Shown here: positions 4,246 through 11,376 of the stretch, piece after piece
Numbering within the stretch: the stretch's first letter is position 1
Layout: every line of letters starts with the position of its first letter
Source: an uncultured SAR116 cluster alpha proteobacterium
GTDB taxonomy: Bacteria; Pseudomonadota; Alphaproteobacteria; Puniceispirillales; Marisalimonadaceae
Assembly (NCBI GenBank): GCA_902595515.1
Contig: CACJQK010000001.1
Location: forward strand, 124,001 to 188,000
Direction of reading: 5' to 3'
Length of the DNA stretch: 64,000 nucleotides
The notes under the pieces: generated by a model
The model's input: only the letters and a program-made list of their open reading frames with translations
Told to the model about the DNA's origin: nothing
The model's database searches: none
Program-made: the position numbers and the translations under genes

Positions 4246-4322
4246 GCGCTCGTAGCTCAGCTGGATAGAGCACTAGACTACGAATCTAGGGGTCAGGGGT
4301 TCGAATCCTCTCGAGCGCACCA
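4246..4322 (+). tRNA. tRNA-Arg (anticodon ACG)
   Basis: A full cloverleaf can be drawn. The acceptor stem pairs GCGCTCG (4246-4252) with CGAGCGC (4312-4318), followed by discriminator A and an encoded CCA (4320-4322). The D stem is GCTC/GAGC. The anticodon stem CTAGA/TCTAG encloses loop CTACGAA, with anticodon ACG at 4280-4282. The T arm is AGGGG-TTCGAAT-CCTCT. The wobble A is presumably edited to inosine to read CGU/CGC/CGA. A decayed integrase start lies just downstream, suggesting this tRNA once served as an attachment site. Confidence 0.97.
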
Positions 4323-4423: not shown

Positions 4424-4618
4424 ATGGGATGTGTAAAAAAAAGAGGTAATTCTTGGAACGCTCAAGTTATAATTTCTGAATGGAGAATTTTTACAAAAAA
4501 ATTTAAACTAAATTAGATGCAACTAAATGGGTGTCTATTTGTTATAACTGTGTTAGAAAAATAAGAAGTGTAAATATTAAATTTGTCCCCAACAAAAATT
4601 TATATTCAATTATTTAAG
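4424..4618 (+). pseudogene. Tyrosine recombinase (integrase) N-terminal remnant, frameshifted
   Basis: The ATG at 4424, with AAAGGAG upstream, opens a 30-codon frame starting MGCVKKRGNSWNAQV and containing FTKKF, the usual opening of the arm-binding domain of phage or island integrases. It stops at 4514. In the -1 frame from 4507 the family pattern resumes as TKLDATKWV, so one A appears to be missing in an A-rich stretch near 4505. The catalytic domain is absent: downstream reading ends at about 4618 without an R-H-R-Y core. Its position about 100 bases after tRNA-Arg is typical of an integrated element. This is a relic, not a working gene. Confidence 0.6.
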
Positions 4619-5032
4619 GTGAAAATATGATACAAAATTATATTAATTGGGAAAAAAACAAATAAATTTGTGGAAAGAAAATATTGGTGTTTCCGATCAT
4701 GGAGTTGCATGGGTATCATTCATCAAAGGTATTTTAGTAGGATTGTTAGTTTATCACTTTTTTATAGTTTAAGATTTCAAAGGTAGTTAAATATTATGAG
4801 TAAAGATTTTACAGTTTTTTTGGTGGTTGCAGGTTTTTTAGTTTTATTAAAAGGTTATATATTTTTTAATATAAACCCTGCTATGTACCTCAACCCTATA
4901 TTAAATTAGTGTTGGTCAGTTTACCCCTACGCCAAAAAATTCAAAAGTATATTAGGTATGGTCGTTACTTTATTATTTTTTTTTGTTGATTTTTATTTGA
5001 TTAAAGTTAACAGGTGATTTTATATATTTGGT
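4619..5032. other. Gene-poor stretch with small-ORF debris
   Basis: No normal gene is visible. From 4627 a frame starts MIQNYINWEK and stops at 4663. An overlapping frame from 4665 continues with NLWKENIGVSDHGVAW and a hydrophobic tail ending near 4770, so together they look like a frameshifted small membrane protein. A second small hydrophobic frame (4796-4909) is listed separately. The last 120 bases are AT-rich without recognisable coding signal. With the integrase remnant just upstream, the stretch reads as the decayed edge of an inserted element. Confidence 0.4.
4796..4909 (+). CDS. Possible 37-residue membrane peptide
   Basis: ATG at 4796, stop TAG at 4907. The product begins MSKDFTVFLVVAGFLVLLKG and holds one clear hydrophobic segment (about residues 6-22), followed by an FFNINPAMYLNP tail. 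There is no convincing Shine-Dalgarno sequence and no recognised family. It could be a genuine single-span mini-protein or remnant sequence of the decayed tract around it; I cannot decide. Confidence 0.25.
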   Translation: MSKDFTVFLVVAGFLVLLKGYIFFNINPAMYLNPILN

Positions 5033-7490: not shown

Positions 7491-8212
7491 ATGATAAAAA
7501 TTATTTTCAGTAGAAAAGGCCTCGATAGCACTGCTGGCGGTATACCTAGTCCTAAAAAAGGAAAAAATATTCAAAGTTTTCCAATCCCATATAAAACAAA
7601 CACTCTAACTTCATATGAGTATCTTGGTTTTGGTAGAGAAATAAATCAGTTATCTAAAAAAAAGATTAAACCTTCAGATACTTGTCATTATGATCCCAAC
7701 TTAGAAACTGGTCAGTTTGGTCAAGTAGGAGCTGCTCAAACACATCTTGAAAATAATGGGGTTGAAATAGGTGATATTTTTCTATTTTGGGGATGGTTTA
7801 GACAAACTGTCGAATTTCAAAATAAAATTTCATTTTCAAAAACTGATCCTGGTCACTATAGGATGTTTGGTTGGTTTCAGATTGGAAAAATTATAAAACT
7901 TGGAGATGACCCAACTTGGTATTTAAAAGAGAAACCAAACCCAAGTTCGCACCCTCACACCATTGGTAAATGGAAAAAAAATAATACTCTTTACATTGCA
8001 AAAAAAAATCTAAATGGATTTGTCCTAAGTGGTTAAATCCTAAACATGGTGGTTGTGGCATGTCATATCACAAAAATCTCAGCAGATGGAAAGAAAATAT
8101 AGTAGACATTGTTGGACGCGGCCAAGAGTTTGTTGCCAAACCTAAAAATGATAAAGAATGTAAAAAATGGTTAATGTCTATTTTTCAATCAGTTGATTTC
8201 AAGAAAATATAA
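7491..8212 (+). pseudogene. Nmad3-family (nucleotide modification associated) protein, frameshifted
   Basis: The first frame (7491-8036) starts MIKIIFSRKGLDSTAGGIPS, the characteristic opening of the Nmad3 family, a family predicted by comparative genomics to act in modified-nucleotide metabolism in phages and bacteria. It goes on with FGQVGAAQTHLENNGV and GDIFLFWGWFR. The frame ends early, but family-like sequence continues in the -1 frame from about 8012 (KWICPKWLNPKHGGCGMSYH and onward) to the TAA at 8210-8212. The break falls in a run of nine A (8000-8008); a tenth A would restore one frame of about 240 codons. So this is a recent pseudogene, a sequencing or assembly error, or polymerase-slippage expression. 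The biochemical function of the family is not established here. Confidence 0.7.
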
Positions 8213-8335: not shown

Positions 8336-8428
8336 ATGAGTAAATTGGGAATTATTTTAATAATTTTATTTGTAATTTTTGTATTTTTTCCAACTATGTC
8401 TTATTGGATTAATCAGTGGAGTTTTTAA
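8336..8428 (+). CDS. Possible 30-residue membrane peptide
   Basis: ATG at 8336, stop TAA at 8426-8428. The product starts MSKLGIILIILFVIFVFFPT and ends SYWINQWSF, a single hydrophobic span. GGAG lies upstream, but at long spacing. It ends 3 bases before the next gene (8432), so it may be the first cistron of the small-gene cluster 8336-9200. No family is recognised and it could be a chance frame. Confidence 0.3.
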   Translation: MSKLGIILIILFVIFVFFPTMSYWINQWSF

Positions 8429-8431
8429 AAG

Positions 8432-8665
8432 ATGTTCAAGTTGAATAGTTTTTGTAAAGAATGTTTTGATCCACATAAAATAATTTGGAGCTGTAAAAAA
8501 CACTATTCTGAAAAAATTTGGATCTACCTTTGTGGGAATTGCATAAGATATTTTAAAAATATAAATGGCAAAAATTTTAGATCTCAATTCCAAAACATAA
8601 AATCTCTTATTAAGTGTCGAGTTTTGTTAAAAAAATTAGAACTTCCATTTTATGAATTAAAATAA
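8432..8665 (+). CDS. Small five-cysteine protein, hypothetical (paralogue of 8991-9200)
   Basis: A 77-residue protein of unknown function. Its N-terminal half holds cysteines at 8, 11, 21, 34 and 37 with the spacing C-x2-C-x9-C-x12-C-x2-C, which suggests a zinc-ribbon-like or other metal-binding fold. The remainder is basic (KNINGKNFRSQ and so on). The protein encoded at 8991-9200 has exactly the same cysteine spacing, so the two are probably paralogues. It lies 3 bases after a tiny hydrophobic frame and 8 bases before a membrane protein gene. No signal peptide is visible, so a cytoplasmic location is likely. Confidence 0.6.
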   Translation: MFKLNSFCKECFDPHKIIWSCKKHYSEKIWIYLCGNCIRYFKNINGKNFRSQFQNIKSLIKCRVLLKKLELPFYELK

Positions 8666-8673
8666 CAAATAAT

Positions 8674-8958
8674 ATGGAACATATAATTTTTAAAATATTT
8701 ATATTTTGTATGTTTATAATTTTGGGCGTATTAATTTTCGGTTTGTTAAAATGGATTTTTGAAAAAATGAAATTATGCTACAAACACATTGATCTGAAAA
8801 TTAAAATATTAATTATATTACCAATAAGTGCTCTAATAATAATCCCTTGGTTGCTTATTCAAACATTGATTTTAATTGGTTATACAGAATTAATAATAGC
8901 AATTATGATAGGTTCTGTAGGATCTCACTATATTTTTGAAAATGAAGAAAAAAATTAA
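8674..8958 (+). CDS. Hypothetical small membrane protein
   Basis: A 94-residue protein, not recognised. It has a hydrophobic N-terminal segment (about residues 5-28), a short basic stretch FEKMKLCYKHIDLKIK, and two closely spaced hydrophobic segments (about residues 47-64 and 65-86), ending in an acidic NEEKN tail. It lies between the two cysteine-rich paralogues on the same strand with short gaps, so the three may be an operon. Confidence 0.5.
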   Translation: MEHIIFKIFIFCMFIILGVLIFGLLKWIFEKMKLCYKHIDLKIKILIILPISALIIIPWLLIQTLILIGYTELIIAIMIGSVGSHYIFENEEKN

Positions 8959-8990
8959 ATTTAAAGCAAACAATTATATATTATGAAGTA

Positions 8991-9200
8991 ATGAAAAATT
9001 TTTATTGTTCAAGATGTAATATTCCTTCTAAAAAGTTGTATAATTGTAAATACGAAAAAAATGACAGTGATTATTTTTTTCTATGTGCCAAATGCGCATT
9101 TGAGTGTAGCAAGATTTTTAGAAAAACTTTTAAATCAAAATCTGGAAAATTTGTTTCAATCGGTTTGTTAAAATCCAGAAAAGAAAGAAGTATTTTTTAA
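8991..9200 (+). CDS. Small cysteine-rich protein, hypothetical (paralogue of 8432-8665)
   Basis: A 69-residue basic protein with cysteines at 6, 9, 19, 32 and 35, giving C-x2-C-x9-C-x12-C-x2-C, identical in spacing to the protein at 8432-8665; an extra cysteine is at 39. The surrounding residues also match (P-x-K near the second pair, CK after the third cysteine, an aromatic-aliphatic pair before the fourth). A zinc-binding role is an inference from the cysteine pairs. No named family was recognised. Confidence 0.6.
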   Translation: MKNFYCSRCNIPSKKLYNCKYEKNDSDYFFLCAKCAFECSKIFRKTFKSKSGKFVSIGLLKSRKERSIF

Positions 9201-10725: not shown

Positions 10726-11268
10726 TTAATAAATATCTGTAAGTGATGAATTATTATTTTTTGGATTATTTACATTCACAGAAACACGATAAAAATTTAT
10801 ATTATTGTTTGCATTACTATTAAATATATCTTTTCCTAAAAGAAATGACCTAACTTCAGACTCTTCTAACAAGACAGGTTGTCTGTGATGTATATGATTT
10901 ATTTGATCTACGGAATTTCTTGTCAATATTAAACAACCAATTTCATTATATAGACCAGCAAAATAATTAGTTTGAGAAAAGTGATAATAAGGTATTTTTT
11001 TATTATCTTTTCTTTGCCACTCATACCAACCATTGTTAAAAATTATACATCTCTTTGCATTTTTAAATGATGGCTTTTCATTCATAGTTTCAGAACGACA
11101 ATTAATTAGGTTCATATCTTGTTTCCATAATGGAGAGTATGACCATTTCATTAACAGCGATTTTTCTTTAGTTTTTACTGGTACTAATTGTGACGGACAT
11201 ACATTATACGATACTTCATATTCTAAATTGAATGCATTTTTTGACGAAACAACAAATCTTCCACACAT
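10726..11268 (-). CDS. SRAP-domain protein (HMCES/YedK type), abasic-site DNA shield
   Basis: SRAP proteins form a covalent thiazolidine crosslink between their Cys2 and abasic sites in single-stranded DNA, protecting replication forks. I choose the ATG at 11268 rather than the longer frame because it yields MCGRF, placing the catalytic cysteine at position 2, exposed once Met is removed. Other family residues are visible: the Asn in INCRSETM, the Glu in NGWYEW, and the His in HIHHRQPVLL. At 180 residues it is slightly shorter than usual. It appears intact and stands alone between promoter-sized gaps. Confidence 0.9.
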   Translation of the reverse strand: MCGRFVVSSKNAFNLEYEVSYNVCPSQLVPVKTKEKSLLMKWSYSPLWKQDMNLINCRSETMNEKPSFKNAKRCIIFNNGWYEWQRKDNKKIPYYHFSQTNYFAGLYNEIGCLILTRNSVDQINHIHHRQPVLLEESEVRSFLLGKDIFNSNANNNINFYRVSVNVNNPKNNNSSLTDIY

Positions 11269-11376
11269 CTGAATAGAATAACTTATTCTATTCAAAACTA
11301 GTAAACAAAAAAAAATTAATTAATAATTATATTAAATATTTTAAAATTAATGTTTATGTTGTTCTAGGTTTAACCT

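Follow-up and report, generated by a model that had tools for sequence, protein, structure and literature searches.

Hydrophobic type I toxins are single-pass membrane peptides of 30-50 amino acids, often encoded on mobile DNA and controlled by antisense RNA. Among small zinc proteins, the anti-sigma factor CsfB (Gin) of Bacillus subtilis dimerises, has a treble-clef fold without being part of a larger protein, and inhibits sigma factors (PMC5890618). Haloarchaeal C(P)XCG zinc-finger microproteins are four-cysteine proteins, mostly of 40-80 amino acids, of which one genome can encode many (PMC11241148, PMC6562870); they are defined by two motifs with a proline at position 2 and/or a glycine at position 5. 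The locus described here comes from SAR116, one of the abundant bacterial groups of the surface ocean (PMC8547437). It lies in a stretch of 64,000 nucleotides (C1:124001-188000; hereafter the window) from a genome judged to be 80% complete, and encodes two small cysteine proteins, P1 and P2, together with the membrane proteins uTM and P3. As small, putatively zinc-binding microproteins P1 and P2 are of a known kind; their architecture is one that we have not seen described.

Results

The putative uTM-P1-P3-P2 operon

The putative operon is located on the plus strand and begins with uTM (8336-8428), an open frame for a single-pass membrane microprotein of 30 residues. It is followed by P1 (8432-8665), recognised as an open reading frame and modelled, which encodes a basic cysteine protein of 77 amino acids (subfamily MFKLNSFCKEC, pI 9.6), by P3 (8674-8958), which starts 8 nt 3' of P1 and encodes a membrane protein of 94 amino acids with three hydrophobic stretches as judged by eye, and by P2 (8991-9200), which encodes a basic cysteine protein of 69 amino acids, a paralogue of P1 (subfamily ending KSRKERS, pI 9.7). 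A preliminary description of this DNA had reported a membrane reading frame between two proteins of identical cysteine spacing on one strand, and these three reading frames were confirmed at the positions given; it had missed uTM, the fourth gene of the operon, located 5' of P1. A uTM frame of its own precedes P1 in 19 of the 23 loci inspected, and these are exactly the loci with P3, although the frame of uTM relative to P1 varies among them. Median dN/dS values amounted to 0.13 for P1, 0.25 for uTM and 0.24 for P3 (17 sequences each, the window and 16 of 24 loci for P1 and uTM) and to 0.19 for P2 (11 sequences), which indicates that purifying selection acts on P1 and P2 and counts as evidence that the four frames are coding. 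On the 5' side of the operon (7491-8212) there is an Nmad3 gene (PF18754) with an internal deletion of about 90 bases and a frameshift when compared to intact relatives.

P1 and P2 have the exact spacing C-x2-C-x9-C-x12-C-x2-C in common. Within stop-to-stop frames of at least 40 amino acids this pattern occurs twice in the window and not once in 100 first-order Markov resamplings. The five-cysteine pattern of the preliminary description is thus exact in both proteins, whereas its label of five-cysteine proteins understates the total, as each has six cysteines, the sixth being placed outside the pattern and differently in the two. The claimed paralogy was borne out: a search with P1 found P2 with E=0.005 in its own genome and with E=1.5e-4 among the open reading frames of the fetched loci, and the two subfamily profiles matched with a probability of 96.7%. 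The sister genus holds separate orthologues of P1 and of P2, and therefore the duplication is not recent. By these comparisons P1 and P2 are genuine old paralogues, and the tree led us to reject a tandem duplication of recent date within the window. A weak P1 match on another contig (C14) of the same genome was discarded, its six-frame reading being without family sequence.

Conservation of the genes within the genus and the order

Of 40 genomes from this SAR116 genus, 21 contained the gene group uTM-P1-P3, in 13 cases with P2 adjoining it, so that the genes of the trio first noticed do stay together in relatives. P1-family matches were obtained in 35 of the 40 same-genus genomes (E≤0.1) and P3 in 23. 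Among 136 genomes of the order P3 was found in these 23 only, all of the same genus. When P1 presence was scored with our own cut-off (E below 1e-18), P1 was present in all 23 genomes with P3 (Fisher 3e-9), and P3 was absent from 2 of the 25 genomes with P1. P2 was less constant. Eight genomes had uTM-P1-P3 without an intact adjoining P2; in one genome (G019) the P2 start codon is lost and in another (G020) P2 is a pseudogene, and therefore P2 can be lost. P2 is dispensable, which we count against a joint module, as we do the arrangement in the sister genus, where P1 and P2 are neighbours and P3 is absent.

Predicted fold, metal site and charge

Of 40 diverse members of the family, 39 kept the four outer cysteines, and 35 of these had the middle one as well. 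This difference points to four zinc ligands, and since the middle cysteine is missing in four of the 39 members, the fifth cysteine is probably no essential metal ligand. AlphaFold models of P1 and P2 reached a mean pLDDT of 67.5 and 66.3, respectively, which is of moderate confidence and does not include the metal. They display a CxxC knuckle, the strands of a hairpin and a helix that starts at the second CxxC, which is the order of elements in a treble clef. In the P1 model these elements are E16-22, E31-34 and H35-48, while they were less fully predicted for P2. Foldseek searches with both models gave no match at E 0.001, the best values being 0.3 and 0.065; weak matches were to ZZ domains, to the GATA-like finger of KDM6 and to ribosomal proteins which were taken as L24e type. 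With VIA-align no Z exceeded 2.6, GATA fingers scored about 2.5, and neither CsfB nor ClpX appeared in the output, an absence that carries no weight; PDB sequence searches returned nothing significant. From the models and the cysteine conservation, P1 and P2 would probably fold as treble clefs, each binding one zinc through its four outer cysteines. The nine members tested are all basic (pI 9.4-9.9) compared to a median pI of 8.9 for 64 proteins of the window; because that median is already so high, charge is weak evidence.

A wider family of small cysteine proteins

P1 and P2 belong to a larger family that comprises five homologue groups, namely P1, Ap (MSYFCSKCEYPF), ApL, P2 and GGTWK, the last of which ends in YGGTWKSKKK. 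The family profile matched 73 of 136 genomes of the order (E≤0.001). The GGTWK profile matched 5 genomes out of 289 searched for the class and 3 out of 398 for the phylum, the genome of the window being counted in both; one of the class matches (G252) is a decayed piece, and the remaining two phylum matches (G572 and G339) lie outside the class. Judging from these profile matches, the branch ending in YGGTWK is the most widespread one and reaches other Alphaproteobacteria. Judged, among other things, by the genes beside the copies, G572 and G339 are probably Gammaproteobacteria, in which case the branch would extend to these as well. In a tree with long branches and many weak forks, and with long-branch warnings, GGTWK was set apart from the other four groups (support 98/94). 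The idea that each pair consists of one member from each of two clades was dropped because P2 falls on the P1/Ap side of the tree rather than beside GGTWK.

The genes upstream of GGTWK copies differ. GGTWK overlaps or abuts the stop codon of a gene of the VTV...LLEREPNTSIL family in two loci (L120 and L121) and that of a 345-amino-acid family without Pfam match in another (L119). In two further loci (L134 in G047 and L135 in G280) it overlaps the start of a gene for a protein beginning with MCGRY, which we take to be SRAP-like; an open reading frame similar to that gene is present in the window at 10726-11295.

The family is uncurated, being named by none of the curated libraries searched. Pfam, NCBIfam, PHROGs and PADLOC gave no match above cut-off for the proteins of the module; the best Pfam matches below cut-off reached 12.5 of 27 bits for P1 and 11.2 of 28 bits for P2, and PADLOC gave none even at E≤1 for P1, P3, P2, one GGTWK and one Ap protein. 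For the relatives, too, nothing in Pfam or NCBIfam passed the curated cut-off. The view of an unassigned, compact system of a cysteine-protein pair and a membrane protein stands; the roles suggested with it (metal sensing or delivery, defence, toxin) are hypothetical. RPB9-like zinc ribbon, zf-UBR, Rhodanese_C and PHD were considered as assignments and rejected, as they were below the curated cut-off or gave E above 0.2 in PDB searches. IMG/VR scans with P1, P2 and P3 detected no relative, the scan with the GGTWK profile detected one contig, and phage and plasmid collections held no relative of one GGTWK protein; a viral origin was rejected on these searches. In the open-licence full text of PMC no description of the YGGTWK string or of a SAR116 zinc finger was found.

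Recurrence of a Cys/membrane/Cys layout

A second version of the layout, Ap-(c8)-mskdf-GGTWK, is made of other paralogues and of unrelated membrane peptides. Its full order was found in four genomes (G017, G006, G023 and G037), and in six (G022, G019, G023, G025, G018 and G029) Ap is inverted and faces GGTWK, with mskdf, with or without c8, still upstream of GGTWK. Other combinations are P1-mskdf in G001 and Ap-c8-mskdf in the sister genus (G715). As the layout recurs with other parts, the uTM/P1/P3/P2 group is one version of a repeated Cys/membrane/Cys unit, and the arrangement first seen in the window proved to be a real one that accommodates non-homologous membrane peptides. More distant paralogues of c8 and mskdf exist elsewhere in these genomes, and possible core paralogues of both occupy similar places in several of them (L164-L173).

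We determined how often a small membrane gene follows within 150 nt on the 3' side and on the same strand, using 88 copies from 58 loci (HMM E≤1e-6, with 200 nt available on the 3' side). This was the case for 32 of 51 P1/Ap copies (P3 in 21, c8 in 5 and mskdf in 6) versus none of 37 P2/GGTWK copies, the set of membrane genes having been defined from the same loci as those counted.

Counts of pairs and of island positions were based on the 150 matches listed, which cover 68 of the 73 genomes with a match and do not include weaker ones. Among these, paralogues less than 1.5 kb apart were found in 22 of 34 multi-copy genomes versus 0.4 expected for uniform placement, a null that ignores contig breaks. 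These numbers refer to genomes and not to independent events because some pairs represent one orthologous locus in several genomes. Among the matches listed, 20 pairs were in tandem, 7 convergent and 5 divergent; two of the 32, both tandem, involve pieces of a single decayed G025 copy that overlap each other, and without them there are 30.

A tRNA-Arg island and its scar in the window

In many relatives the tRNA-Arg (ACG) gene is the attachment site of an island that holds members of the family. In the window this gene (4246-4322) is followed by a scar that extends to position 4910, all on the plus strand. The N-terminal remnant of an island-type tyrosine integrase (MGCVKKRGNSWNAQ...; 4424-4516), whose full-length relatives are PF00589, runs into the remnant of an Ap-type gene (4507-4619; HMM E=9.5e-11), the decayed third family member of the window, for which the HMM match spans 23 residues and the tail is in another frame. 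Then come a frameshifted gene for a c8-type membrane microprotein (4627-4772) and an intact gene for a mskdf-type membrane microprotein of 37 residues (4796-4909). Thus, the window keeps a decayed second cassette at the tRNA-Arg island site.

Of 132 copies in genomes where gpt, which lies beside tRNA-Arg(ACG), was found, 40 were located within 15 kb of gpt versus 2.3 expected, and in 20 of the 39 genomes having both, a copy had a related tyrosine integrase no more than 10 kb away; both counts are among the matches listed and cover those from genomes judged relevant. In the f2 genomes G755 and G750, the gpt/tRNA-Arg site carries an integrase, with an internal stop in G755, and a single GGTWK gene. 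The link to a mobile island fits a role in defence, competition or addiction somewhat better than one in metal homeostasis, though it does not prove such a role.

Other genes were noted beside family copies. A recurrent two-gene block adjoins them at nine loci and encodes a GFA-like protein of 208 and an NTF2-like protein of 126 amino acids, both below Pfam cut-off. DUF6974-like proteins (PF22388) are encoded near copies at five loci (L060, L061, L143, L145 and L125), in two of which (L061 and L145) the gene is directly upstream of P2 by sequence cluster.

Discussion

We tentatively propose, with a probability of about 0.4, that uTM-P1-P3-P2 is one version of a mobile, membrane-tethered module that combines a pair of paralogous zinc microproteins with at least one small membrane protein. 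The family, its recurrence, the purifying selection, the pairing, the coupling of the P1/Ap type to a membrane gene and the enrichment at the tRNA-Arg island are results and speak for it, as do the conserved outer cysteines and the order of elements in the models; the mode of action that follows is proposed. Each cysteine protein would form a treble clef in which the four outer cysteines coordinate a single zinc. A member of the P1/Ap type and one of the P2/GGTWK type would act jointly, probably as a heterodimer in the manner of the CsfB or ClpX zinc domain dimers, and the cognate membrane protein would hold the P1/Ap-type member at the membrane. The basic tails might then contact a host target such as nucleic acid, RNA polymerase, the ribosome or an acidic lipid, so that the module could serve its carrier island as a membrane-tethered adaptor or inhibitor. 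Counted against such a module are the moderate confidence of the models, the lack of a fold match at E 0.001 and the consideration that genes on an island can remain linked even when they do not function together.

The main and strongest rival is a toxin-antitoxin or addiction system, in which uTM, c8 and mskdf (30-50 residues) or P3 would damage the membrane and would be neutralised, or controlled in their expression, by the basic zinc proteins. What puts it first among the rivals is the small size and hydrophobicity of the membrane parts, together with carriage on islands. Small hydrophobic peptides do adjoin small basic proteins directly, the family occurs near integrases and tRNA sites in multiple and often decayed copies, and c8 and mskdf have paralogues at other places of the genomes. 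However, the Pfam, NCBIfam, PHROGs and PADLOC searches matched no toxin or antitoxin family, an addiction pair with two zinc proteins would be unusual, and genomes of the other families have single GGTWK copies without a membrane peptide. We regard this explanation as unlikely, although a serious one.

An island-borne module for defence against phages or other elements seems improbable. The island position would suit it, as would a restriction-like protein of 987 amino acids and serine recombinases (both recognised by eye) that adjoin some copies and an HNH protein in one island; yet PADLOC matched none of the module proteins, and the island proteins tried were equally without match, apart from weak HNH-region matches of one protein to several models, PtuB and Cas9 among them.

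Metal sensing or delivery, with the cysteine proteins carrying zinc or copper and passing it to the membrane protein, deserves little credence. It would account for invariant cysteines beside a membrane partner, and in some relatives the same island contains genes for CopD, a multicopper oxidase and CopC/CusF. But these copper genes occur in only three mapped loci, the island carries unrelated cargo as well, no conserved metal-ligand cluster is seen for P3 in A6, and four-cysteine sites of the spacing found in P1 and P2 are usually structural. Neutral hitch-hiking, by which small, locally duplicated genes would be kept together by descent without joint function, is equally improbable; it agrees with the many remnants and pseudogenes and with synteny that in part reflects one shared locus, but dN/dS well below 1 in all four genes, pairs that persist despite changed orientation and a slot filled by unrelated membrane genes speak against it.

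The membrane-tethered module might be taken further. In a new class of mobile modules, an obligate heterodimer of two paralogous zinc microproteins would be specific for a swappable membrane microprotein and would act as a compatibility or exclusion system of islands, conferring immunity against related elements or phages; different combinations of paralogues and membrane parts would then provide different specificities. This extension is speculative, and we doubt that it holds.

A recurrent, selected, island-borne module of proteins of less than 100 residues is the kind of gene that annotation misses. Should the pairs prove to be zinc heterodimers that act on membrane peptides, they would offer a testable mechanism for the interaction between island and host, and the YGGTWK branch, with its probable presence in Gammaproteobacteria, may include cultivable hosts in which to study it.

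Comparison with known systems

The Gin/CsfB family (PF10764) was not listed for P1 or P2 in Pfam scans at E≤1. When compared to hydrophobic type I toxins, which are under antisense RNA, the membrane peptides of the module differ in adjoining zinc-type proteins. The haloarchaeal C(P)XCG proteins (PMC11241148, PMC6562870) resemble P1 and P2 as small four-cysteine microproteins with mostly unknown functions, but they are archaeal and are not described there as island-borne Cys/membrane/Cys modules; moreover, the defining proline and glycine are missing from CKECF and CGNCI of P1 and from CSRCN and CAKCA of P2. The N-terminal zinc-binding domain of ClpX is a dimeric adaptor whose treble clef has its elements in the order predicted for P1 and P2 (compared with CsfB in PMC5890618). 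In ClpX this domain forms part of a large ATPase, and it has no sequence match to P1 or P2. CsfB/Gin, according to the same paper, has its own spacing (C11/C14 and C30/C33) and differs in clade and target, and neither a membrane partner nor a paired paralogue is mentioned there. Like P1 and P2 it is small and stands alone, and like their models it has one CxxC in a knuckle and the other on a helix; it is a treble clef that binds one zinc and dimerises (PMC5890618), as is proposed for P1 and P2. By this analogy, CsfB would be the nearest mechanistic model for P1 and P2 among the systems compared here.
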